From: Actinomycetota bacterium
GTDB taxonomy: Bacteria; Actinomycetota; UBA4738; HRBIN12
DNA length: 64,000 bases
Direction: 5' to 3'
Assembly: GCA_026003015.1 (NCBI GenBank)
Contig: BPGL01000002.1
Coordinates: 124,001 to 188,000 of the forward strand
Each line of letters starts with the position of its first letter. Positions within the stretch are counted from its first letter, which is position 1. The notes under the pieces are model-generated. The model had not been told where the DNA came from and ran no database searches. It saw nothing but the letters and a program-made list of their open reading frames with translations. Shown here piece after piece: positions 3,988-59,505 of the stretch. Made by a program: the position numbers and the translations under genes.

Positions 3988-6006
3988 TCAGTGCGAGCCC
4001 TGCCCGTGCTTGCGCTCCGCCGCCCGGGCCAGGCGGAAGCGGAGGCTCGGCCCCTCGCCCTCCGCCTCCGCGTCGGCCGGAGGCGGAGGGAGCTCGACCT
4101 GCGACCCCGCGACGGGCGTCGGGGGCGGCGTGGGCGGGGGGACCTCGCCCTCGGGCAAGATCGGCGTCGACGGCGTGGCCGCGGGCGATCGGGCGAGCTC
4201 GGTCTCGAGCGCGGCCGCCCGAGCCCGCTCGGCGGCGAGCTCGCGCTCGAGCTCGGCGACCTGGCGCTCGAGGGCCGCCGCCTGCTCGGCGGCCGAGCGC
4301 CGGAGGCGCTCGAGCTCCGCCTCGGCCTCGATCCGAACCCGTTCGAGCGAGCGCCGCAGCTCTTCGTGGGCGCGCTGGGTCGCCGCGTCCAGGGCGGTCC
4401 GCGCCTCGGCCGCCGCGGCCGTCGCCATGGCCAGCTCGCGCTCGAGGGCCGCAACCCGCTCGGCCCACCGCGCCTCGGCCGACTCTGCCGAGCGGCGGGC
4501 CTCCTCAAGCTCCCGTTCGAGCCCCTCGGCTCGCCCCGCGGACTCCGCGAGCTGCCGCGCGCGCTCGAGCGCGGCGGCCAGCTCGGCCCGGAGCCGATCG
4601 AGCTCCGCCGCAACGGCCGCCTCCCGCTCTCGGGCCAGGTCCCGCTCACGGCCCGCCAGCGCGGCGAACCCCTCCAGCTCGTCCGCGCGCCCGCGGAGCC
4701 GCTCCAGCTCGGCCTGCGCGTCCCCCATCATCCGCTCCAGGTGCTCGCGCCGAACCCGCTGCTCCTCGAGCGCGCTCGCCAGCGTCGAGGCGTGCGCCTC
4801 GATCTGCGTCACGCGGTCCTCGGCGCGTCCCGCCCGCTCCTCGGCGAGCCTCGCGCGCTCGAGCGCGGCCTCGAGGGCCGCCTGGGCCTGGACCGACCCC
4901 CCGGAGATCGCCACGTGTGGCTCGCGCGTCGGCGCCGGGGCCGCCCGCAGGGCCTCGACCTCCTCGCCCAGCCGCGCCAGCTCGGCGCGTGCCTCCTCGA
5001 GCTCGGCCGCCAGGCGCCCGTGCTCGGCTTCGGCCTCGCGGGCACGCTCCTCGGCCTCGCGGGCGCGCTCCTCGGCCTCGCGGGCACGCTCCTCGGCCTC
5101 GCGGGCACGCTCCTCGGCCTCGCGGGCGCGCTCCTCGGCCTCGCGGGCGCGCTCCTCGGCGCGAGCCACGGCCAGCCGGAGGTCCTCACGAGGCGTCTCG
5201 CGCTCTTCGGCCGCCGCCTGGCTCCGACCCGCACGACGCCCCGCGCGACGTCGAGCGATCCACGCCCCCGCGGTCCTCGGGCTCCGGGGGGACGACGTCG
5301 TCGCGCCCGGCTGCTGTCCCGGGGGCCCGGCGGTCGCACCCCCCGACGCCTGCGCGGGACCCGACGCCCGGCCGGGGCCGCCACGGCTCCCCAGCCACTC
5401 GCGGAGCGACACGAGCGCGACCACCCCCAGCACGGCGGCCGCCGCGAAGGCCACCAGACGCAGCGTCGGCCACGGTCCGGCCGCCCCTTCCACCACGTCG
5501 AGCGATCGATCGACGACGAGCACGAACTCAGAGCGCGACCCCGATGCCTCGGCGATCGGCGCGACGGTGCGAAGGACGTCGTCTCCAGCCAGGGGATCTT
5601 GCGTGCGCTCGCTCGCGGTGGCGCCCGCGACGGCCCGCTGCAGGAGGGAGGCCTCGAGGCCCGCGCGGGCTCCCGGGCGATCGAGCGGGTCGGAGGACAC
5701 GACGATGGCGCCGCGGTCGGTGATGACGCGGGCGCGCTCGACCCCCTCGCCGCGGACGTCCTGGAGGGCTCGGTTCAGCTCCTCGCTCAGGCGATCGCCG
5801 AGCGGGGCGGCGGGGTCGACGCCGCGCAGGAGCGGCCACAGCCGCTGTCCCGCGCGCTCGCTCGCACGCTCCAGCGCGCGGACCTCGCGCTCGACCCCTA
5901 GCTCGTGCACCAGACCGGCCACGGCGCCGAGCAGGAGGAACGCCACGGCGAGGCCGCCGGCCAGCGGCCAGCGCGTGCCCCTTGGCTTCGGGCGTCCCCC
6001 GATCAT
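3988..6006 (-). CDS. Two-helix membrane protein with extracytoplasmic domain and long coiled coil
   Basis: A 672-residue protein whose ATG start has AGGAGA four bases upstream. A first membrane helix (about 14-34) and a second (about 178-196) enclose an extracytoplasmic domain of about 140 residues. This contains ARVITDRGAIVVSSDPLD, which looks like a single-Cache-type sensor fold. The cytoplasmic part is a basic, Pro/Gly linker and then some 380 residues of heptad coiled coil, including six perfect EERAREA heptads. It ends in a Pro-rich tail. The layout resembles chemoreceptor or sensor-kinase inputs, but no signalling output domain is present. It may be a scaffold or mechanical sensor in envelope growth, given the adjoining wall hydrolases. 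Function unknown. Confidence 0.75.
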   Translation of the reverse strand: MIGGRPKPRGTRWPLAGGLAVAFLLLGAVAGLVHELGVEREVRALERASERAGQRLWPLLRGVDPAAPLGDRLSEELNRALQDVRGEGVERARVITDRGAIVVSSDPLDRPGARAGLEASLLQRAVAGATASERTQDPLAGDDVLRTVAPIAEASGSRSEFVLVVDRSLDVVEGAAGPWPTLRLVAFAAAAVLGVVALVSLREWLGSRGGPGRASGPAQASGGATAGPPGQQPGATTSSPRSPRTAGAWIARRRAGRRAGRSQAAAEERETPREDLRLAVARAEERAREAEERAREAEERAREAEERAREAEERAREAEERAREAEAEHGRLAAELEEARAELARLGEEVEALRAAPAPTREPHVAISGGSVQAQAALEAALERARLAEERAGRAEDRVTQIEAHASTLASALEEQRVRREHLERMMGDAQAELERLRGRADELEGFAALAGRERDLAREREAAVAAELDRLRAELAAALERARQLAESAGRAEGLERELEEARRSAESAEARWAERVAALERELAMATAAAAEARTALDAATQRAHEELRRSLERVRIEAEAELERLRRSAAEQAAALERQVAELERELAAERARAAALETELARSPAATPSTPILPEGEVPPPTPPPTPVAGSQVELPPPPADAEAEGEGPSLRFRLARAAERKHGQGSH
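5027..5162 (-). repeat. Tandem 21-bp repeats encoding EERAREA heptads
   Basis: About six copies of a 21-base unit (minus-strand sense GAGGAGCGCGCCCGCGAGGC with G/A variation) lie inside the coiled-coil gene and encode EERAREA heptads. The near identity at DNA level suggests recent expansion by slippage, so copy number may vary between strains. Confidence 0.9.
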
Positions 6007-6243
6007 CGCGTCTCCTCGGACCGGACGGACCCTCCGGCCGGTCCCCGTCTCTCGTTCCTTCGGACGACGACCGGTGAAGCTGAACCCTGAGAACGCGGTA
6101 GGCCGCCTCGGGGTCGGCCGGATGGCCCCGGCCAACCGGTCGCTCGGCCGATCGGGGCGGCGATCAGCGCGGGAAGACGGCGATCAGGTGCGTGGCCCCG
6201 GGAACGGTCCCGAGCTCGATCGCCGTTCATGACGGGGAGCCGA

Positions 6244-6319
6244 TGGTGGAGACGAGCGGACTCGAACCGCCGACCCCCTGCGTGCAAAGCAGGTGCTCTA
6301 CCAGCTGAGCTACGTCCCC
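6244..6319 (-). tRNA. tRNA-Ala(TGC)
   Basis: A complete cloverleaf on the minus strand. The acceptor stem GGGGACG pairs with CGTCTCC and includes the G3:U70 wobble that identifies alanine tRNAs. The anticodon loop CTTTGCACG holds TGC. The T-loop GGTTCGAGTCC is standard and the CCA end is encoded. It lies about 7.5 kb from tRNA-Ile(GAT); both sit on the gyrA side of the origin, as in many actinobacteria. The 237 bases between it and the coiled-coil gene hold no other gene that I can see. Confidence 0.97.
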
Positions 6320-6350
6320 GCCGGCGCAAGCGTACCGCGCGTCGGACGCC

Positions 6351-6938
6351 TCAGGGTTCCGGGGGCGGCTCCGGTGAGGGTGAAGGGCTCGGGCTCGGGG
6401 ACATGCCCGGTCGGTACGTGAGCTCCGACCCCACGTCGGGAGCTCGATCGGCGCATCGCCCCTCGCACTCCCACCAGGTCTGCACCCACCACCGGTAGAA
6501 GGTCCTCGACGGCCCGAACGTCAGCGCGCGCAGGGGCAGACGCACCCATGCGGCACGCTCGCCGACCTTCTCGGCCGCCACCGCCCGCAGGTAGCGGTCG
6601 CGACCCGTTCCGGTCGCAACGCGCCACAGCGACCCCAGCAGCCGACGCCCGTCGGAGCGGACGACGACGAGGTGGTCCGCCGCTTCGTCGCCGCGCGTGT
6701 CGAGGAGCAGGTAGACCCAGCCGCGGTCCCACATCTGCCCCACGGTCCAGGGGTCGAACGTGATCACCGTCCACTCCGGCCCGGTGCCGGGCGGATCCTC
6801 GAACCGGACGACCCGCACGTCGAGCCGCCCGGGCGTGTCGTTCGGATCGAGGACCCGCTGCGGCATGATCGCGGCCCATGCCGCTGCGGCCACGACCGTG
6901 GCCAACGCCAGCGCGACAGGGGCGCTCCTGCGGATCAC
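6351..6938 (-). CDS. Secreted protein of unknown function, last gene of mau-like operon
   Basis: A 195-residue protein with an N-terminal signal sequence or anchor (APVALALATVVAAAAWAA), then a Trp-rich globular domain (DRGWVYLLLDTRGDEAADHL, RTFYRWWVQTWWECEGRC). It ends in a Ser-Pro repeat tail (SPSPSPSPEPPPEP). Its GTG start overlaps the stop of the mauE-like gene in GTGA, so it is translationally coupled. One Cys pair is visible near the end. I do not recognise the family. Its position suggests that it is an extracytoplasmic partner of the mauA-like protein. Confidence 0.7.
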   Translation of the reverse strand: MIRRSAPVALALATVVAAAAWAAIMPQRVLDPNDTPGRLDVRVVRFEDPPGTGPEWTVITFDPWTVGQMWDRGWVYLLLDTRGDEAADHLVVVRSDGRRLLGSLWRVATGTGRDRYLRAVAAEKVGERAAWVRLPLRALTFGPSRTFYRWWVQTWWECEGRCADRAPDVGSELTYRPGMSPSPSPSPSPEPPPEP

Positions 6939-8059
6939 CGGCGCCCCCCGAGCCTGAGCCAGCGGGCCGAGCGCCACGCGGTCCAGATCGCGACCCAGAG
7001 GCCCGCGAGCGCGAGCGCGGCCGGGAGCCGGTCGGCCGCTTCCGGGACCCCCGGCGACCACGCGAACGCCCCGTCCGTGGCCCCGGCCGCCCCGACCCCC
7101 GCGACGGCGGCGAGTGCGCCGTTGCGCACGAGCTGCGCCCACGCCTGCAGCGGCCGCCGCTCCCCGAAGCACCCGCACCCGAGCTCCCGGCCGAGGAGGA
7201 GGCGGGCGCGCACGATCTCGGCGCTGAAGACCACGAGCAGCCCGAGCGCCCACAGGCTCGCGGCGCGTCGCATCCCCACGATCGCGAGGATCGGCACGCC
7301 GACCTCCGCGAGCGGCACCGCCCACGCCGCCGCGCGCTCGAGCCGGACCGGCAGCCGCCGGGCCTGGAGCGCTCGGCGCCACCGGGCCGGCGCGACGAGC
7401 TTGGCCGCGCTCGACCACGCGAACGCCAGCGCGATCACCGCGACCGCGAGGGCCGACCATCCGCCCTGGCTGCGGGTCGCGGCAACCGCGGCCGCGACCC
7501 CGACCGCGACCAGCGCGAGGCCGTTGGTCAGGCGCCTCGGCCACTCCGGGCGACCCGCAAGCCGATCCACGAGCGCGCGGCCGTCGTCGTCCCGACCCAA
7601 CCGGCCGCCGGCGAGGGCGCCGAGCCCGCGGGCCAGGCCGAACGCGCCGAGCGCCACCGCGCCGAGCAGGGGCCGCCCGCTCGCGAGCGCGGCTAGCGCG
7701 ACGACGACGAGCGTGCCGTGCGCCAGGAACGTGAGGAAGCCGATCCCGAGCCCCGCGCCGTAGAGCAGGGCCGCGGTCGTCGGCCCGAAGAAGCTCCGCC
7801 ACCAGTCCGGGACCTGCCGACGCAGCTGCGGGACCGGCAGGCGAAGGTCCACGAGCTCGCCCAGGCCGTAGGCGGTCGCAGCGATCGCCACCGCAGCGGC
7901 CCCGGCTCGTCCCCACGGCGCGCCGAGGAGGGCGCCGATGCCGGCGAGCAGCCCCCCGAACGCCGCCCCCACGGCCGAAGCCGCGGCCGCGTGCGCGGCC
8001 CAGGCCGCGAGCCACCTGCCTCGGCCCCCGTGGACCACGGGGGTGATGGTCTCCACCAT
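6935..8059 (-). CDS. MauE-like redox membrane protein with extra N-terminal membrane domain
   Basis: A 374-residue integral membrane protein. The C-terminal half (from about residue 190) has the four-helix MauE/DoxX-like arrangement: FAWSSAAKLVAPARWRRAL, then PLAEVGVPILAIVGM and finally RELGCGCFGERRPL, the Cys-x-Cys segment typical of MauE-type proteins. The N-terminal half adds about five more helices, including ALLYGAGLGIGFLTFLAHG. That part resembles DsbD/CcdA-like transport helices only loosely. MauE is needed with MauD for disulfide formation in the methylamine dehydrogenase light chain. MauE proteins are usually about half this size, so this is a fusion or extended form. The gene sits in an overlapping operon with mauD- and mauA-like genes. 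Confidence 0.7.
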   Translation of the reverse strand: MVETITPVVHGGRGRWLAAWAAHAAAASAVGAAFGGLLAGIGALLGAPWGRAGAAAVAIAATAYGLGELVDLRLPVPQLRRQVPDWWRSFFGPTTAALLYGAGLGIGFLTFLAHGTLVVVALAALASGRPLLGAVALGAFGLARGLGALAGGRLGRDDDGRALVDRLAGRPEWPRRLTNGLALVAVGVAAAVAATRSQGGWSALAVAVIALAFAWSSAAKLVAPARWRRALQARRLPVRLERAAAWAVPLAEVGVPILAIVGMRRAASLWALGLLVVFSAEIVRARLLLGRELGCGCFGERRPLQAWAQLVRNGALAAVAGVGAAGATDGAFAWSPGVPEAADRLPAALALAGLWVAIWTAWRSARWLRLGGRR

Positions 8060-8068
8060 CGACAGCCC

Positions 8069-8149
8069 TCAGGGCCCGTAGCGCGCCGACCAGCCCGCGA
8101 CCGCCGAGGCGGCCACGAGCGCCGCGAGCACGGTCTGGTCCTCTAGCAT
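8069..8149 (-). CDS. Possible 26-residue membrane peptide
   Basis: A short frame whose ATG overlaps the stop of the mauA-like gene (ATGCTAG) and which ends ten bases before the mauE-like start. It encodes a charged start (MLEDQ), a hydrophobic helix (TVLAALVAASAVAGW) and a short basic end. The spacing fills a gap that would otherwise break the chain of overlapping genes, so it may be a coupled membrane peptide. Length alone gives little statistical support. Confidence 0.35.
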   Translation of the reverse strand: MLEDQTVLAALVAASAVAGWSARYGP

Positions 8150-8685
8150 CGCCGGTTCAGCTCCCGGTACCCAACGCAGAACACGCGCAGCCCCCTGGGG
8201 CAGTAGCCGCGCACCGCGGCGTCCCCGTTGATCCGGATCCGCGAGGTCGAGCAGCAGTCCATGATGTGGCGCAGCCGGCCCGAGCAGCATCGCGTCCACC
8301 CGCCCCCGTAGCGCGGGTTGCGCACGAACGGGTAGCGCATCGGAACGAGCTCCTGGCACGTGCGGTGGCGCACCTGCGTCTCGGGGTCGAGGTAGATCCG
8401 CCCCTCGTCGTCGACGGGGAACCCGAACGTCGGGTGCAGCGGCCACCCGCGACGGTTGACCCTCGTGAGCGGCGCGTAGGGGTGCGGGCAGGAGCCGGTC
8501 GTGTACGTGTGCCCACAGAAGTGGTGCGCCTCGGCCCGCGTCGGGTCGAGGGCCGCCGCGACGAGGCCTCCGCCGGCGAGCGCGACGATCGCCCGGCCGA
8601 GTCGGCCCAGGAACCCCCGCCGGCTCGTCCGCTGCGCGAGGGCCCGCTCGGCGAGCTCGGTCCGCGACAGCCTCAGCTCGCCCAC
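8143..8685 (-). CDS. Tat-exported Cys-rich protein, methylamine dehydrogenase light-chain-like (MauA)
   Basis: A 180-residue protein whose GTG start has GGGAGG upstream and overlaps mauD by 13 bases. Residues 20-45 are a twin-arginine signal (SRRGFLG then IVALAGGGLVAAAL), so it is exported folded. The mature part has ten Cys, with two CC pairs in GWTRCCSGRLRHIMDCC, and exactly two Trp after the signal (RRGWPLHP and GGGWTRCC). Methylamine dehydrogenase light chains are exported by Tat, rich in disulfides, and use two Trp to form tryptophan tryptophylquinone (TTQ). The flanking mauD and mauE genes support this family. Overall similarity is not strong enough to be sure it carries TTQ, and no heavy chain or mauG is nearby. 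Confidence 0.6.
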   Translation of the reverse strand: MGELRLSRTELAERALAQRTSRRGFLGRLGRAIVALAGGGLVAAALDPTRAEAHHFCGHTYTTGSCPHPYAPLTRVNRRGWPLHPTFGFPVDDEGRIYLDPETQVRHRTCQELVPMRYPFVRNPRYGGGWTRCCSGRLRHIMDCCSTSRIRINGDAAVRGYCPRGLRVFCVGYRELNRRC

Positions 8686-9182
8686 CGCTCGCCCTCCCGT
8701 CCGACCCGTGCCCGCGCCGTGTCCAGGATCCCTTCGAGCTGCTCGAGGTTGTTCACGGTCCCCTTCGCACGCACAACCCCGAGCTCGTCGAGGACGACGA
8801 CGAACGGCGTGCCGGGGACGTCCCACGCGCGTTCCGCCTCGGGGTCGTGGACGACGAGCGCCTCGACGCCGGCCGCGCGCGCCGCCGCCGGGATCGCGGG
8901 CGCGAGCTCACGACACACCGGACACGTCGGGGAGGAGAAGACGACGAGGCGCCTCGCGCCGGGCCCGCCGATCGTGACGCTGGTGCCGTCGTCGGCGAGG
9001 GCCTCGGTGGGGAGCATCCCCGCGCCGAGCTCGGGGCCCTCGTCGTCCACCTCGAGCGCGCCCCGCGGCCCGAGGCGCAGGTGCAGGGTCCCGACCTGTC
9101 GCGCCAGCGCCACGACGACCAGCGCGATGACGACGAGCAGCACCCACTGCACGACGAACGCCACGGCCCACCAGCCACTCAT
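8673..9182 (-). CDS. mauD: MauD-like thioredoxin-fold disulfide protein
   Basis: A 169-residue protein with one N-terminal membrane helix (AVAFVVQWVLLVVIALVVVAL). A thioredoxin-like domain follows, exposed outside the membrane, with the active-site motif SPTCPVCREL, the cis-Pro loop PGTPFVVVLDE and a GTVNNLEQLEGIL C-terminal helix. All are typical of MauD. MauD introduces or isomerises disulfides in the methylamine dehydrogenase light chain. Its ATG overlaps the stop of the upstream repeat-protein gene in ATGA, and its own end overlaps the mauA-like start. Confidence 0.85.
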   Translation of the reverse strand: MSGWWAVAFVVQWVLLVVIALVVVALARQVGTLHLRLGPRGALEVDDEGPELGAGMLPTEALADDGTSVTIGGPGARRLVVFSSPTCPVCRELAPAIPAAARAAGVEALVVHDPEAERAWDVPGTPFVVVLDELGVVRAKGTVNNLEQLEGILDTARARVGREGERWAS

Positions 9183-9736
9183 CGGATCGTGTGAGTGGCT
9201 CGCTCGTCGGCGTCCAGCAGCTGAACGAAGGGCGTCCCTTCGTCCGTCAGGCCCAGGAGCGCGCGCAGCTCGCCGCCCGGACCGAGGAGCCGCATGATCG
9301 GCGCCCCGTGGGCCGCGAGGCCCAAGCGCACCCGGACCTTCCCGCTCTGGTCGTACAGCCCGATCGTTGGGGACCCCTGCTCGGCCAGGGAGAAGCGCCG
9401 GATGAGCTCCCCGTCTTCCTCCCGGACCCCCAGCGTCGGAGAGGACTCGGGCGCGAGCCCGAACTTCGCGCGGATCTTGCCGTGGCGATCCCCGAAGGCG
9501 AGCGACGCCGACCCGTCGGCGGCCAGCCCGAAGGTCGCGCGCACGTGTCCCTCGCCGTCGGCGATGGCCAGGCCCGTCGCCCCATCGGGCTGCATGCCGA
9601 AGCGGGCCCGCACCCGTCCCTCGTCGTCGAGCATCGAGAGGAACGGTTGGTCGTTGGCGACCCCGATCCGCAGCCGAACCCGACCGTGCTCGTCGACGAC
9701 CTCGAAGCCCTCCGCACGCACAACGCGTCTCTTCAT
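9179..9736 (-). CDS. Protein made of about seven degenerate 22-24-residue repeats
   Basis: A 185-residue protein, first gene of the mau-like operon, that is almost wholly repeats. The unit reads roughly G-x-P-x-L-x-L-x-D-x2-G-x2-R-x2-[FL]-G, as in RVRARFGMQPDGATGLAIAD, HVRATFGLAADGSASLAFGD and KIRAKFGLAPESSPTLG. No signal peptide is visible. Such repeats suggest an elongated beta structure. I have seen the type in actinobacterial and planctomycete proteins without known function. The coupled position with mauD implies a shared role, perhaps as a cytoplasmic scaffold. Confidence 0.7.
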   Translation of the reverse strand: MKRRVVRAEGFEVVDEHGRVRLRIGVANDQPFLSMLDDEGRVRARFGMQPDGATGLAIADGEGHVRATFGLAADGSASLAFGDRHGKIRAKFGLAPESSPTLGVREEDGELIRRFSLAEQGSPTIGLYDQSGKVRVRLGLAAHGAPIMRLLGPGGELRALLGLTDEGTPFVQLLDADERATHTIR

Positions 9737-53520: not shown

Positions 53521-54186
53521 TCAACCCGCGGGGCGGGGCCGGCGGTACGGCCGAAGGGATGGGGGGAGCGGAACCCCGGCGGCAAGGCTCGGGTCGGGCT
53601 TCGCCGCCCCCGCCGCGAGCCGCAGGGGCAGGACCCCCGCCCAGATCGGGAGCCCGAGGTCCTCGGCGTCGTCCTTCGGCGGTCCGGTGCGGATCTTCGC
53701 GCTCGCCTCGGCGATCGGAACGGCGAGCAGCAGGGTCTGGCGGTACTCATCGACCGTCGGCATCCGGGCCTCCGCCGCCCGGCCGGGGGCGACGTGGTCG
53801 GTGATCGCCCGCGCCGCCAGGTCGAGCTCCTCGGGCTCGGTCACCTCGCGAGCCCGCCCGTAGACCACGACCGACCGATAGTTCATCGAGTGGTTGAAGG
53901 CGCTCCGGGCGAGGACGAGACCGTCGACGATCGTGGCGGCCACGCAGACCGGCGCTCCGGCGCGAAGCGCCCTCCAGGGGCGCGCGGCCCGGGATCCGTG
54001 CAGGTACAGGGTGTCGCCGACCCTGGCGTGGATCGTCGGCAGGACCCGGGGCTCGCCCTCCTCGTCGACCCACCCGACGTGGCAGATCAGGGCCTCGTCG
54101 AGGATCGTGTGGATCGTGGCGCGGTCGTAGGCACCCCGCTCGGGGTGCCGGTGGACCCGCGTGCGCTCGGAGGCCGGCCCCGTCAC
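53521..54186 (-). CDS. Pyridoxamine-phosphate-oxidase-like split-barrel flavoprotein (COG3467 type)
   Basis: A 221-residue protein of the NimA/COG3467 split-barrel group. ERGAYDRATIHTILDEALIC, then VGWVDEEGEPRVLPTIHARV, DTLYLHGSRAARPWRALRAG and NHSMNYRSVVVYGRAREVTE are its hallmarks. Members bind FMN, heme or F420. The GTG start overlaps the stop of the S component gene in GTGA, so it is the last gene of the cobalamin riboswitch operon. Its role there is unknown; reductive processing of the imported corrinoid is a guess. Confidence 0.82.
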   Translation of the reverse strand: MTGPASERTRVHRHPERGAYDRATIHTILDEALICHVGWVDEEGEPRVLPTIHARVGDTLYLHGSRAARPWRALRAGAPVCVAATIVDGLVLARSAFNHSMNYRSVVVYGRAREVTEPEELDLAARAITDHVAPGRAAEARMPTVDEYRQTLLLAVPIAEASAKIRTGPPKDDAEDLGLPIWAGVLPLRLAAGAAKPDPSLAAGVPLPPSLRPYRRPRPAG

Positions 54187-54995
54187 GGTGCCGATCGTAC
54201 CGGCGGGGGCTCGGCCCTCGTCGGCGGGCCGACCTCGGGCGCCGGGCCGACCTCCAGGTGCATCCGACGGCCGACCCGCTCGAGCGCGGCGAGCAGAGGT
54301 CGTCCGAGGACGAGGACGAGGAGGGCGTTGCCGACGGCCCGGAACGTGTCCCACGCGAAGGAGGTGAGGGCGTAGAACGCGGCGTAGCGTCGGAGGTTCT
54401 CGAGGGCGGAGCCGTCCGGGTCCCAGCCGATCGGGGAACCGACGGTCGTGAAGGGCCACGACCACAGGTTCATCAACGCACCGTAGAGGTAGCCGACGGC
54501 GGCGCCGTACACGGCGAGCCAGACGAGGCGCTGCCGAGGGCCGCCCGAGCGGGGCAACAGCCCGGCGCCGGCGCCGACCCACCCGACCGCGACCATCTGG
54601 AAGGGGAGCCATGGCCCGAGCCCGCCGATGAACAGGCCGCTCGCCAGCATGCCCACCGAGCCGAGCAGGAACCCGAACGTCGGCCCCAGCGCGTTGCCGC
54701 CGACGAGCACGGGGAGGAACAGGGCGCTGAACCCCGCGACGAACCCGGGCAGGCGCAGGGCGACGACCGCCGCGCCGAGCACGCCGAGCAGGGCGACGGT
54801 CTTGGGCCCGAGCCCGCCGCGCCCGAGCTCGAGCGCCAGCAGGGCCAGCAGGCAGGCGCTGAGCGAGAGCAAGATCCAGGGCGCGTCGGGCCGCTCCCCG
54901 CCGCCGGTTCGCAGGACGAAGGGCCAGGCGAACGCGAGCGCCCCGAGGCCGTGCATCACGACGAGGACGGCCCGGCGCGGTCGCGGGGGGGTCAC
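54183..54995 (-). CDS. ECF transporter S component
   Basis: A 270-residue membrane protein with about six helices. GGNALGPTFGFLLGSVGMLA, GGLGPWLPFQMVAVGWVGAG and LYGALMNLWSWPF are typical of ECF S components. It should bind the vitamin and dock with EcfA/EcfT. The riboswitch that precedes the operon points to a cobalamin-type substrate. A long Pro-rich cytoplasmic tail follows the last helix. Start GTG overlaps the ATPase stop. Confidence 0.85.
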   Translation of the reverse strand: MTPPRPRRAVLVVMHGLGALAFAWPFVLRTGGGERPDAPWILLSLSACLLALLALELGRGGLGPKTVALLGVLGAAVVALRLPGFVAGFSALFLPVLVGGNALGPTFGFLLGSVGMLASGLFIGGLGPWLPFQMVAVGWVGAGAGLLPRSGGPRQRLVWLAVYGAAVGYLYGALMNLWSWPFTTVGSPIGWDPDGSALENLRRYAAFYALTSFAWDTFRAVGNALLVLVLGRPLLAALERVGRRMHLEVGPAPEVGPPTRAEPPPVRSAP

Positions 54996-56566
54996 GCCAC
55001 CGCCCCCGCGACCTGCTCGGGGGTCAACCAGCCGGCGCCGAACACGCGCGTCATCTGTGGTGCGAACACGTGCGAGTCGCCGAGGACCCGGGCCGGGTCG
55101 CCTTCGGCGATCACCTCGCCGTGCGCGAGGATCACGACGCGGTCGGCGATCGACGCGGCGAGCTCGACGTCGTGCGTAGCGACCGCACAGGCGCCCCCCG
55201 CGTCGGCGTGACGTCGGAGGAACGCTTGGAGGCGTTCCTTGGACGCCGGGTCCAGACCGCGGGTCGGCTCGTCGAGCGCGAGGACCGGGGCGCCGGTCGC
55301 CGCCACCGCCGCGATCGCGGCCAGGAGGCGCTGCCCGGCGGACAGCTCGCGGGGGTGGCGCTCGGCGAGCGTGCCGATGCCGAGCGCCTCGAGCCATGGC
55401 TCGGCGGGCCCGTCGTCCCGCCGAGCGCGCAGGGTCGTGCGCACCTCCTCGGCGACGGTGTCGGCGAACAAGATGTGCTCGGGGTCCTGCGGGACGAGCG
55501 CGACGGCCCTGCCCGGCTCGGGCCTGCCCCCGCCGATCGTCACCTCGCCGGCGTCGGGTCCGAGGAGCCCCGAGAGCGCCCGCAGCAGCGTGGTCTTGCC
55601 CGCGCCGTTGCGCCCGAGCACCGCGACCACCTCCCCCGCCCGCAGCTCGAGGTCGATCCCATGGAGCACGACGGCGCCGCCGAGCCGAACGGCGAGGCCG
55701 CGCGCGCGCAGGAGCGCGGGACCGGGCGCCGACGCCGGGCGCGGGCGGGGCACGAGGTCGGGTCGGTGCTCGCTCGCGGCTCGGCGCGCCTCGCGGACCG
55801 TGAGGGGCACCGGCTCCCAGCCGAGCAGGCGCCCGAGCCGCGCCACCGGGGGACCGAGCCCGAGCTCGGCGAGCACGCCGGCCGGCGTGTCGACCGCGGC
55901 CCGGCCGTGGCGCAGGCCGACCGCGAGATCGACCCATCCCGCGACGCGCTCGAGCCGGTGCTCGGCGAGCACGACGGTGATCGCGTGGTCGTGCACGAGC
56001 CGTTGGAGCGCGGCCATGACGTCCTCCGATCCCTGCGGATCGAGCTGCGAGGTGGGCTCGTCGAGCACCAGCAGGCGGGGACCCGCCGCCAGGGCGGCCC
56101 CGATCGCCACCCGCTGGCGCTCGCCGCCGGACAGCGTGCGCACGCTGCGATCGCGCAGCGCGGCGAGGTGCAGGAGATCGAGGACCTCCTCGACCCGCCG
56201 GCGCATGTGCGCGGGGTCGACCCCGAGGTTCTCCATCCCGTAGGCGAGCTCGTCCTCGACGCGGTCGAGGACGAAGGCGGCGTCGGGCTGCTGGGGTACG
56301 AAGGCGACCGCGTCGGCGAGCTCGCGCGGCAGATGCCGGCGGGTGTCGCGGCCGCCGACCAGGACGCGTCCGTCGAAGCGCCCGCCCGAGAAGTGGGGCA
56401 CGAGGCCGTTGGCCAGGCGCAGGAGGGTCGACTTGCCAGCGCCGGTCTGACCGACGACGAGCGCGAAGGCGCCGGCGGGGATCTCGATGCGAACCGCCTC
56501 GAGGGCCGGGCGCGACGCGTCCGGGTAGGTGAACGTGACGTCGTCGACGCGCAGCGCCTGGTCCAT
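54992..56566 (-). CDS. ECF transporter ATPase, two ABC domains fused (EcfA-EcfA')
   Basis: A 524-residue protein with two complete ABC ATPase domains. Domain 1: GQTGAGKSTLLRLANGLV, VRTLSGGERQRVAIGAALA, LLVLDEPTSQLDPQG. Domain 2: GRNGAGKTTLLRALSGLL, PRELSAGQRLLAAIAAVA, VLALDEPTRGLDPAS. The second signature has LSAGQ instead of LSGGQ. The fusion covers the roles of EcfA and EcfA' in other organisms. It overlaps ecfT by one base. Confidence 0.93.
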   Translation of the reverse strand: MDQALRVDDVTFTYPDASRPALEAVRIEIPAGAFALVVGQTGAGKSTLLRLANGLVPHFSGGRFDGRVLVGGRDTRRHLPRELADAVAFVPQQPDAAFVLDRVEDELAYGMENLGVDPAHMRRRVEEVLDLLHLAALRDRSVRTLSGGERQRVAIGAALAAGPRLLVLDEPTSQLDPQGSEDVMAALQRLVHDHAITVVLAEHRLERVAGWVDLAVGLRHGRAAVDTPAGVLAELGLGPPVARLGRLLGWEPVPLTVREARRAASEHRPDLVPRPRPASAPGPALLRARGLAVRLGGAVVLHGIDLELRAGEVVAVLGRNGAGKTTLLRALSGLLGPDAGEVTIGGGRPEPGRAVALVPQDPEHILFADTVAEEVRTTLRARRDDGPAEPWLEALGIGTLAERHPRELSAGQRLLAAIAAVAATGAPVLALDEPTRGLDPASKERLQAFLRRHADAGGACAVATHDVELAASIADRVVILAHGEVIAEGDPARVLGDSHVFAPQMTRVFGAGWLTPEQVAGAVA

Positions 56567-57393
56567 CAGCGGGATCGGTCGAGCCCTGGGACGGCGAGGG
56601 CGAACGCGGCGAGCACGAGGCGGGGGTCGGTGGCGGGCCAGCCGAGCGGCGCCGTCGAGGGATGCAGCTCGGCCCACCCGCCGAGGGCGGCCCAGCCGAC
56701 GACGCCGGCGGCGACCGCGGCGGTCACGACGGTCAACGTCGCCTCCGGGGTCCAGGGCTGAGGTCGGTAGCGGGTCCGCCGGCCCCGGCCGTGGCCCCGG
56801 GCGTCCATCGATTCCGCGAGGCTCAGGGCCTCCTCCATCCCGGTCGCCAGGACCGGGATGGCCAGTGCGGGGAGGGCGCGCAGCGGCCCGAGGCGCAGAC
56901 CGCGGGCGCGCTGAGCCTCGTGCACGCGCCGGGCGGCGAGCGCGGTGCGCGGGGCGATCGACAGCGCGAGGGCGGCGGCGAGGGCGGGCTCGTGGAACCG
57001 CTGCGGCGCGAGCCGCAGGATCCCGAACGGGTCGGCGACCGCGTTGAAGGCGCCGACGACGACGAGGAGGGCGGCCAGGCGCAGGCCCTCGAGGGCGGCG
57101 AACGCGATGCTCGACGCGTCGATCGTGCCGAGGGCAACGAGCGCGGTGCGCAGGACGAGCGCGGCGACGGCGGCCATCAGGAACCCGCGGAAGGGCACCC
57201 CGGTCGCATCGCGCCGCCCGCGGACCGTCGCGACGAACCACGCCGAGGCGACGACGACCGCGAGCAGAACCGGGTCGCTGGTCGCGAGCACGAACGCGCC
57301 GGCGCCCACGGACCAGGCGAGCCAGGCGGCGGGATGCACGCTCGCCGTCGGCCGGGCGAGCACCCCGACCCGAGCGATCGCGCGGTCGCTCAC
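56566..57393 (-). CDS. ECF transporter transmembrane component EcfT
   Basis: A 275-residue protein with about five to six helices and the EcfT coupling helices: RTALAARRVHEAQRARGLRL and ALSLAESMDARGHGRGRRTR. These contain the Ala-Arg-Gly motifs that contact the ATPases. It is coupled by overlap with the ATPase gene and, at the start, with the anchored DUF4430-like gene. Confidence 0.92.
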   Translation of the reverse strand: MSDRAIARVGVLARPTASVHPAAWLAWSVGAGAFVLATSDPVLLAVVVASAWFVATVRGRRDATGVPFRGFLMAAVAALVLRTALVALGTIDASSIAFAALEGLRLAALLVVVGAFNAVADPFGILRLAPQRFHEPALAAALALSIAPRTALAARRVHEAQRARGLRLGPLRALPALAIPVLATGMEEALSLAESMDARGHGRGRRTRYRPQPWTPEATLTVVTAAVAAGVVGWAALGGWAELHPSTAPLGWPATDPRLVLAAFALAVPGLDRSR

Positions 57394-58283
57394 GGCGGGC
57401 TCCCGCGATCGGCGCGCCGGCGGGCGCGCAGGCCGAGCGCGGCGAGCGTCCCGACCCCGACCATCGCGAGCCACATGGCGGGGGGCGGGACGGGCCTCGA
57501 CGAGGAGGCTCCGTGGACGAGCGCGGCGTCGGCCGAGGGGCCCGGTGCGCGGGTGGAGCCGGTGCCCGAGGGGCTCGGATCGCCCCGGCGCTGGTCCGAG
57601 CGCCGATCGCCCGGCTCCTGGGCGGCGTCGGCGCGACCGCGCTGGGGCGAGGCGGTGGCGCTCGGGCCCGTCGGGGCCGGACCCGAGCCCGTTCCGGCGT
57701 TCCCGGACCCCGACCCGGCGCCGCCAGATCCCCCGCCGGCGCCCGGGCCCCCGGGGCCGGCGGCGTCGTCGCCTCCGGTCGGTGGCGGCGCGGGGGAGGG
57801 CGGCGGACACACGTCGCCCGCGCGGGTCGGCGGCGGGCTCGGGTGGCTCGTGGGGCCGTCCCCCGTGCCCCAGGACCAACCCTCGACGTCGCCCGGACCG
57901 ACCCGCGTCGTGCCGGCGCCGGTCGTCGCCCAGCTCCAGCCGCCGTCCCCGGTCCCGCGCCAGTAGCCCCAGAAGCTCGGGTAGGAACCGAAGCAGTCCC
58001 CCGAGACCGGGCCGACGCCGGCGAGCATGCACACGGCCTGACCGCCGAAGCCCAGGCGGTACGTGAGGCCGTGCTGGCGGCCGGCGAGCTGGATCAGGCG
58101 GATCCCGGTGACCTCGGGGGCGTCGAGCTCGACGCAGTAGCGGAGCACCTGCTCGCCGGTGTCCACGACGAGGACCGCCGAGGGTCCCGGCGCCGCGCAG
58201 GCCGGGGCGGGCGCGGCCGCGATCGGCCACGCGCTGCCGACGAACAGCGCGAGGACGACCGCGAGCCGCGCGCCCGGGCGCAC
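57390..58283 (-). CDS. Secreted, membrane-anchored DUF4430-like protein
   Basis: A 297-residue protein with a signal peptide (1-30) and a small beta domain of about 110 residues. YCVELDAPEVTGIRLIQLAG, SYPSFWGYWRGTGDGGWSW and VGPGDVEGWSWGTG follow the DUF4430 pattern of W/Y and a GD-x3-W close. A Gly/Pro/Ser/Thr-rich stalk of about 110 residues follows, then a C-terminal helix (MWLAMVGVGTLAALGLRAR). DUF4430 resembles the beta domain of intrinsic factor. Cobalamin or a related ligand is inferred from the operon and riboswitch. Four Cys may form disulfides. Confidence 0.7.
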   Translation of the reverse strand: MRPGARLAVVLALFVGSAWPIAAAPAPACAAPGPSAVLVVDTGEQVLRYCVELDAPEVTGIRLIQLAGRQHGLTYRLGFGGQAVCMLAGVGPVSGDCFGSYPSFWGYWRGTGDGGWSWATTGAGTTRVGPGDVEGWSWGTGDGPTSHPSPPPTRAGDVCPPPSPAPPPTGGDDAAGPGGPGAGGGSGGAGSGSGNAGTGSGPAPTGPSATASPQRGRADAAQEPGDRRSDQRRGDPSPSGTGSTRAPGPSADAALVHGASSSRPVPPPAMWLAMVGVGTLAALGLRARRRADRGSPP

Positions 58284-58284
58284 C

Positions 58285-59286
58285 TCAGGCGCAGTCGGGG
58301 GTCTCGGGCGCGGGACCGCGCACCGCCCCCTCGTAGGGGAAGGCGAGCCCCAGGAGCCCCGGCACCGCCCCGATCGTCGCGCCGAGGTTCGGGTCCCCGC
58401 GACGGTCGGCGTCGAAGGTGTAGGCGAAGGCCCCGCACCGCGCGTACTGCAGGTCGCGCAGGGCCTGCCGGGCCGCGGTCGGTCCCCGCCGCCCCACTGC
58501 GGCGAAGGCCTGCAGGACGAGCGCGGTCGAGTTCGCGTCGGTCGCCTGGAAGCCCCAGGAATAGCCCCATCCGCCCCGATCGGGGTCGCGGATCTGGCGG
58601 AAGAAGGCGAACGGGTCGGCCGCGAGCCCGTCGAGGCCGCGGCGGGTCGTCCGCAGCGCCATCACGACCAGCGCGGTGGCGTTCGTCTCCGACAAGAAGA
58701 AGTCCGTCGAGGGGTCACCCGAGAAGCAGTGCTCGTCCTCGCTCGCCTGGTGGAAGCGGTCGAACGGCCACCCGCCGTCGGGGCACTGCTCCCGGCGCAG
58801 CAGCCGGATCGCGCGCGCCGGCACGGGGGCGTCGGCGGCCCGCAGCGCGAGGACCGCGAGCGCGGTGTCGAACACGCCCTCGCCGGTCGAGGACGCGTAG
58901 GCCTCCCGCAGCTCGCGGACGAGGTTGTGCCCGCCGAAGGACCGCGGCCGCGCGCCCCCGGCCTCGGCGGCGAGGATCACCTTGGCCCGCAGCCCGACCG
59001 TGTCGACGTTGCCCTTGGCGGTCTGGCGCTCGAGGTAGCCGAGCGCGCGGCGCAGGGTGGGCGCGCCGACGCCGGCCGCGACGATCGCGAGCACGGCGTC
59101 GGCGGTCGAGCCGATCGGGGAGAACGCGGGCACCGATCCGTTCGGGTTCTGTTGGGTGGCGATGAAGCCGATCGCGCGGGCGGCTCGCTCGGCGTCGGTC
59201 GGTGCGGCGGCCGCGGGGGTCCAGGCTCCCACGAGGGTGGTGAGGGTCACGCAGACGGCGGCGATCCGCCGGGTCAGCCGGTGCAT
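58285..59286 (-). CDS. Secreted alpha/alpha-barrel (prenyltransferase/squalene-oxidase repeat) protein
   Basis: A 333-residue protein with a signal peptide (1-28) and AAAG-type repeats of a helical barrel: AIGFIATQQNPNGSVPAFSP, TALAVLALRAADAPVPARAI, REQCPDGGWPFDRFHQASED, ATALVVMALRTTRRGLDGL and GGWGYSWGFQATDANSTALV. The fold is that of terpene cyclases and the alpha domain of intrinsic factor/transcobalamin. No DxDD cyclase motif is visible, and the protein is exported, so binding rather than catalysis is likely. AAAGGAG precedes the ATG, just downstream of a cobalamin riboswitch. Confidence 0.82.
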   Translation of the reverse strand: MHRLTRRIAAVCVTLTTLVGAWTPAAAAPTDAERAARAIGFIATQQNPNGSVPAFSPIGSTADAVLAIVAAGVGAPTLRRALGYLERQTAKGNVDTVGLRAKVILAAEAGGARPRSFGGHNLVRELREAYASSTGEGVFDTALAVLALRAADAPVPARAIRLLRREQCPDGGWPFDRFHQASEDEHCFSGDPSTDFFLSETNATALVVMALRTTRRGLDGLAADPFAFFRQIRDPDRGGWGYSWGFQATDANSTALVLQAFAAVGRRGPTAARQALRDLQYARCGAFAYTFDADRRGDPNLGATIGAVPGLLGLAFPYEGAVRGPAPETPDCA

Positions 59287-59384
59287 CGGCGCTCCTTTCC
59301 GGGCGTCCTCGCGCCCACTCGGAACGGTCTCGGGAGCGCGGGAGCTCGGCGGAGCCGCCGCCCCCACCCCACGAGGGACCGTTC

Positions 59385-59505
59385 GGCCGAGCGTCGCCGG
59401 GGTCGACCGGGCTCGTCCGCCTCGAGGGCGGCTCCACCGTTGCGGGACAGCGCCGGGTTCCTACCGGACTTCGCCCCGTCGACGCGGGTGTGAGCGAACG
59501 CTAGC
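59385..59505 (-). ncRNA. Cobalamin riboswitch
   Basis: On the minus strand the segment 59505 to about 59385 carries the family core in order. A 5-prime helix comes first (GCTAGCGTTCGCTCACAC), then GAAGTCCGGT, the B12 box CCGGCGCTGTCCCGCAAC (59441-59458) with GGTGG, a variable arm (GCCGCCCTCGAGGCGGA) and GAGCCCGGTCGACC as the closing GAGxCxGG-x2-ACC block. The B12-box positions agree with the published consensus except for CAACGG in place of CAACTG. It lies 100 bases before the ATG of the secreted barrel protein, so it should shut the operon when cobalamin is plentiful. The end points are approximate. Confidence 0.88.

Follow-up and report, generated by a model that had tools for sequence, protein, structure and literature searches.

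How do B12-dependent bacteria without the BtuFCD transporter acquire their cofactor? The question is raised by a locus of an Actinomycetota bacterium of the HRBIN12 lineage (assembly GCA_026003015.1), located in a stretch of 64,000 nucleotides (nt) of contig BPGL01000002.1 (positions 124,001 to 188,000 of the forward strand) that was analysed as a whole and is referred to below as the window. On the minus strand of the window, between positions 53521 and 59472, a riboswitch is followed by six tightly packed genes encoding, in this order, an exported toroid, an exported and anchored beta protein, the transmembrane protein EcfT, a fused double ATPase, an S component and a split-barrel protein. 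There is good reason to believe that this operon encodes a corrinoid importer, in which the toroid and the beta protein would clamp B12 at the cell surface before handing it on to the S component of an energy-coupling factor (ECF) transporter.

The two exported proteins

The beta protein is composed of a signal peptide, a beta domain (approximately residues 30–150), a Gly/Pro-rich stalk and a C-terminal hydrophobic segment followed by an Arg tail, the hydrophobic segment being a predicted transmembrane anchor. A Pfam scan of the protein by itself matched no family, and hmmsearch, run with the beta profile on the sequences of the PDB, returned chance antibody matches only. A first-pass annotation of the window, made from the sequence alone, had described an exported, anchored protein resembling DUF4430; this Pfam family (PF14478) does not match the window protein and reaches one of its 31 homologues at an E-value (E) of 0.095. 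Since direct sequence searches against the PDB were fruitless, fold and profile–profile comparisons were needed. The beta domain was modelled by AlphaFold2 using the 31-member alignment; the model of the window domain has a predicted local distance difference test score (pLDDT) of 92.5 and a predicted template modelling score of 0.87, and displays the strand and helix order of a beta-grasp fold with a hairpin after the helix, the insert reported for the transcobalamin clade of beta-grasp domains (PMC1796856). The top 13 matches of this model in the PDB comprise 12 transcobalamin chains and the bacterial DUF4430 structure 3u7z, with a probability of 1.00, and the next match falls to 0.66. Among the transcobalamin matches is the beta domain on its own, both free and bound to cyanocobalamin (5np4 is the bound form). 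Alignment of the beta family to DUF4430 with hhalign gives 96.2% (E 2.6e-9), and the DUF4430 set used in this comparison itself matches human transcobalamin-1 by sequence (E 5.6e-5). The description as DUF4430-like holds at the level of fold and profile–profile comparison and fails at the level of the Pfam family, while the anticipated match to an intrinsic-factor-type domain is borne out by the transcobalamin beta domains at the top of the list.

The toroid protein carries an N-terminal hydrophobic signal and belongs to the wide alpha/alpha toroid superfamily. It matches the NCBIfam family SCO2321 with 107.7 bits, below the family cut-off, and SQHop_cyclase weakly; the model of a fused homologue (locus L054) forms an alpha6/alpha6 toroid with a pLDDT above 90. 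PF01122 (Eukaryotic cobalamin-binding protein) does not match the window toroid and matches one of 37 toroids of the family at E 5.9e-4.

The riboswitch

The cobalamin riboswitch match ahead of the operon is the sole one in the 2.2 Mb genome and lies on the correct strand, about 115 nt before the start codon of the toroid gene. Alignment of the aptamer core across 11 loci with the same operon (the window and ten others) reveals an invariant core plus a co-varying pair: in the window and in L051 a change from AACTG to AACGG is matched on the opposite side by one from CCAGG to CCCGG, compensating changes as expected for a paired stem. Because the match is unique in the genome, correctly oriented and spaced, and conserved and co-varying in its core among relatives, we do not consider it a chance occurrence, and the B12-box riboswitch of the first-pass annotation stands. 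Two close relatives (L044 and L065) carry a long cobalamin riboswitch of 86–96 bits before the same operon, while the others, including the window, have the short, low-scoring type.

Conservation and natural fusions

Sampling of 297 genomes of the phylum turned up the SCO2321 toroid family in 58. Forty loci were taken and annotated with profiles built in this analysis, which yielded 25 complete operons, including that of the window, with toroid, beta protein, EcfT (T), ATPase (A) and S component (S). A cobalamin riboswitch lies within 1.5 kb upstream and on the same strand in 23 of the 25, a count that answers the question, raised by the first-pass annotation, of how often these genes share such a riboswitch; one of the two complete operons without it is truncated by a contig end. 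A second layout begins with a Pfam DUF4430 protein, and in the four loci that were read its order is riboswitch, DUF4430, T, A, S and toroid; in all 11 genomes with this layout (11/11) the riboswitch precedes the DUF4430 gene by 1–3.5 kb, and the toroid follows that gene at 3.6–5.1 kb. A second survey, of the best 80 S-component loci in a separate named collection, recovered the complete set in 44, including loci of Amycolatopsis, Nocardioides, Kribbella and Streptomyces, and an Anaerolinea genome (Chloroflexota) has toroid, beta protein, T, A and S together.

Natural fusions tie the parts of the operon together. At L054 and L071 the toroid and the beta domain form one exported, C-terminally anchored protein encoded before T-A-S; further single-chain fusions of the two occur at L062, L116 and L128, and in reverse order at L139. 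A Foldseek comparison aligns the L054 fusion with transcobalamin and intrinsic factor across 430–490 alignment columns, spanning both domains, at a probability of 1.00. The toroid is also found fused to the importer itself: in some lineages the toroid and the S component, the proposed docking site, are parts of one chain, encoded by a single uninterrupted reading frame on the plus strand (L053:5751-7337 and L057:5736-7442). The two parts are separated by a hydrophobic segment with an Ala-rich, signal-peptidase-like site at its end, which would place the toroid outside the membrane, either attached or cleaved off.

Several loci depart from these layouts. At one (L049:2342-4207, minus strand) a distinct DUF4430 protein is encoded in addition to a toroid and a beta protein of the SCO2322 type, and a riboswitch occupies positions 4497-4649. 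At L047 (about 5600-9400) and L062 a single operon contains a pair of toroids and two or three beta domains in tandem, which suggests variants for different corrinoids. At L035, L039, L040, L066 and L070 the toroid gene stands apart, with several kb around it free of recognised beta, T or S genes, and most of these loci have an upstream riboswitch.

The ECF transporter and the need for B12

The operon encodes the complete set of an ECF transporter, namely EcfT, two ATPase domains and an S component. The double ATPase matches ABC_tran (E 5.7e-52) and ECF_ATPase_1 (E 1.2e-86) in two stretches of one protein, and the S component matches PF12822 with 42.1 bits, above the cut-off of 30.7. EcfT is assigned mainly from its conserved position and co-conservation, its match to the Pfam family CbiQ being weak (E 0.12). 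With regard to the substrate, a profile of the toroid-fused S components has a sole significant match among all PDB chains, the cobalamin S component CbrT (6FNP; E 4.3e-18); a mixed S-component profile likewise reaches CbrT (E 5.6e-14), with folate S components at E 0.5–1 only. The window S component is a homologue of the toroid-fused ones (36% over 153 residues), and its link to CbrT runs through these relatives. Judged by this relation and its context it is likely to be specific for B12.

The genome has a use for the vitamin: among its products are MetH, methyltransferase corrinoid proteins and a B12 domain of the mutase type. Besides MetH, several proteins of the corrinoid methyltransferase type are present (G000 C3:101607 and C2:381022; L080 and L082). 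CobS was not found in the genome, nor was a FecCD (BtuC-type) permease in a genome-wide search, which was not aimed directly at BtuF or CbiMN; CobS and FecCD are among three families searched, all of which match in most control genomes. Of three glutamine-amidotransferase matches, considered as a possible sign of B12 synthesis (the third being L085), the two that were read are PurQ and HisH and were rejected as ordinary enzymes.

Proposed mechanism and alternative explanations

We propose that the substrate would be a corrinoid, cobalamin or cobinamide, imported under B12 repression. The exported toroid and the stalked, anchored beta protein would represent the two halves of a bacterial carrier built on the transcobalamin/intrinsic-factor plan, which together would enclose a single corrinoid on the outer side of the membrane, the anchor of the beta protein keeping the toroid nearby. 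The clamp would then deliver the corrinoid to the S component, which together with EcfT and the double ATPase would move it into the cell, and plentiful B12 would lower expression of the operon through the riboswitch. The tethers seen in the examined layouts, that is, the anchored beta protein, the anchored fusion and the frame joining S component and toroid, favour such a hand-off over mere storage. The first-pass annotation had likewise read two secreted proteins serving an ECF importer for cobalamin, and the present results support it. A stricter version, in which the importer depends on its two-protein extracellular binding system and the toroid and beta protein close on the corrinoid and dock on the S component, has in our view about an even chance of being right.

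A number of observations weigh against the proposed importer. Rfam reports no riboswitch at the gathering threshold, and the RF01482 match was detected by an E-value search alone: it scores 29 bits (E 0.001) against a gathering score of 50, and the RF00174 match of the same riboswitch 20.8 bits against 31.5. In sequence as well as in fold the toroid comes closest to squalene-hopene-type cyclases, transcobalamin and intrinsic factor ranking lower, and the fold is a common one (terpene cyclases, prenyltransferases, complement C3d); for this reason the toroid fold alone is no sign of B12, whereas its partner and context are. The L054 toroid by itself is also nearer to terpene cyclases than to transcobalamin, and the arrangement of the domains in the L054 model is unreliable, because the toroid is good but the beta part lies mostly below 60 pLDDT, which accounts for the poor overall fit of its Foldseek match to transcobalamin and intrinsic factor. 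The likeness to intrinsic factor, as first annotated, holds for the fused homologue across both domains; the toroid on its own matches intrinsic factor below the cyclases. Profiles built from S components of the window clade, with the toroid-fused members left out, do not match CbrT, and on this account we do not name the window S component a CbrT. Finally, the genome is 90.5% complete, so that the absences of CobS and FecCD are provisional and suggestive only.

Of the alternatives, the one that survives best is possible but clearly less favoured: the importer carries B12, which its S component binds without an intermediary in the manner of ECF-CbrT, while the exported proteins do no more than scavenge corrinoids, keep them in store or shield them, or else attach to polymers of the wall. 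ECF-CbrT needs no partner outside the cell to bind and import cobalamin (PMC5997447), and some T-A-S loci have no recognisable adjoining toroid or beta gene, though many of these are truncated by contig ends. The tight and conserved coupling of all five genes speaks against this reading, as do the two loci at which a single reading frame covers S component and toroid.

It is rather unlikely that the substrate is instead a precursor or relative of B12, such as cobinamide, another cobamide or cobalt. Cobalamin riboswitches also govern the transport of cobalt and precursors (PMC3766115), and sequence profiles of the window clade's S component do not extend to CbrT, which leaves room for this idea; however, with CobS not found and the two amidotransferases that were read being PurQ and HisH, the cell would gain little from cobalt or cobinamide alone, and the folds of the two exported domains are those of B12 carriers. 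That the toroid is an enzyme akin to terpene cyclases or prenyltransferases in an incidental neighbourhood is highly improbable in spite of its top matches to squalene-hopene cyclases, since the terpene-cyclase motif DXDD occurs at the aligned site in none of 37 family members (the window has ETNA) and the toroid is exported and is either joined to a transcobalamin-like domain and an S component or conserved alongside them, in operons headed by a B12 riboswitch.

Relation to known systems

The idea of a bacterial B12 carrier made of a toroid and a beta domain is not new. Burroughs et al. (2007; PMC1796856) named a transcobalamin-like beta-grasp (SLBB) clade in bacteria, noted its fusions to toroids and its occurrence in CbiO/CbiQ operons, and suggested that it serves to scavenge B12; the organisms concerned were low-GC Gram-positives, planctomycetes and euryarchaea. 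The window holds a diverged, split actinobacterial variant. As in that clade, an exported toroid and a transcobalamin-type beta-grasp domain are encoded with an ECF ATPase and EcfT. Fusion of toroid and beta domain is common there, whereas the window encodes two separate proteins. What the present analysis adds is this split form, the spread in Actinomycetota (and some Chloroflexota), a diverged beta family outside the reach of Pfam DUF4430, the systematic linkage to a riboswitch, the S component with its toroid fusions, and the link to CbrT.

Intrinsic factor, transcobalamin and haptocorrin consist of the same two domain folds as the window pair, the likeness of the toroid being at the level of fold only, and in transcobalamin one B12 is sandwiched between the two domains (PMC1796856). 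The animal carriers are single chains taken up via cell-surface receptors; in the window the carrier halves are two proteins. ECF-CbrT of Lactobacillus delbrueckii (6FNP), for which B12 import has been proven biochemically (PMC5997447), is an ECF importer like that of the window, and CbrT is homologous to the S component of the toroid-fused relatives. CbrT has no extracellular binding protein and uses a shared ECF module (PMC5997447), in contrast to the dedicated T, A and S of the window with their two exported proteins. As proposed for the window system, BtuFCD imports B12 with the aid of a binding protein, but its permease and binding-protein folds are unrelated to those of the window system. 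The window toroid and beta protein are distant members of the NCBIfam families SCO2321 and SCO2322, scoring below the curated cut-offs, and the operon order is the same in Streptomyces. These family names carry no function; we found no paper naming SCO2321–SCO2325 in this context, although the ECF survey of Rodionov et al. (2009) could hold an earlier mention.

The proposed importer would provide a probable function for SCO2321 and SCO2322, named only by Streptomyces locus tags, the former occurring in about a fifth of the sampled Actinomycetota genomes, and would explain how B12-dependent bacteria acquire the vitamin without BtuFCD. It would also show that the domain pair of animal B12 carriers serves ECF importers, whether as separate proteins, fused together or fused to the importer. 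ECF importers, for which extracellular binding proteins are commonly considered unnecessary, would then be fed in a new way, and the window would hold a split bacterial counterpart of intrinsic factor. The split form allows either half to be examined alone and bears on the origin of the animal carriers.

Organisation of the operon and its last gene

All six genes named in the first-pass annotation are present, and its span of 53521-59505 contains the operon but ends 33 nt past the detectable aptamer. One junction between the genes is a 1-nt gap and the remainder are overlaps of 1–4 nt, the start of the EcfT gene overlapping the preceding beta-protein gene through GTGA, a pattern as in translationally coupled operons.

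Table 1 Features of the operon in the window
Feature	Coordinates	Strand	Basis
Cobalamin riboswitch aptamer core (adenosylcobalamin type, short variant)	59402..59472	-	RF01482, RF00174; conserved in relatives
Exported alpha/alpha toroid (SCO2321-like), 333 amino acids	58285..59286	-	ATG preceded by AAAGGAG
Exported beta-grasp protein (transcobalamin C-terminal/DUF4430-like; SCO2322-like), 297 amino acids	57390..58283	-	Fold and profile comparison
EcfT-like transmembrane protein	56566..57393	-	Weak CbiQ match; position kept in relatives
Fused double ECF ATPase (CbiO-type, two copies)	54992..56566	-	ABC_tran, ECF_ATPase_1
ECF S component (substrate-binding membrane protein)	54183..54995	-	PF12822
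Split barrel of the Pyridox_ox_2 family (probable flavin binder)	53521..54186	-	PF12900

The terminal split-barrel protein matches PF12900 with an E-value of 2.7e-40, and one might speculate that it carries out a flavin-dependent step on the incoming corrinoid. Its gene is limited to the operons of close relatives (L045, L046, L050, L052 and L087–L089).

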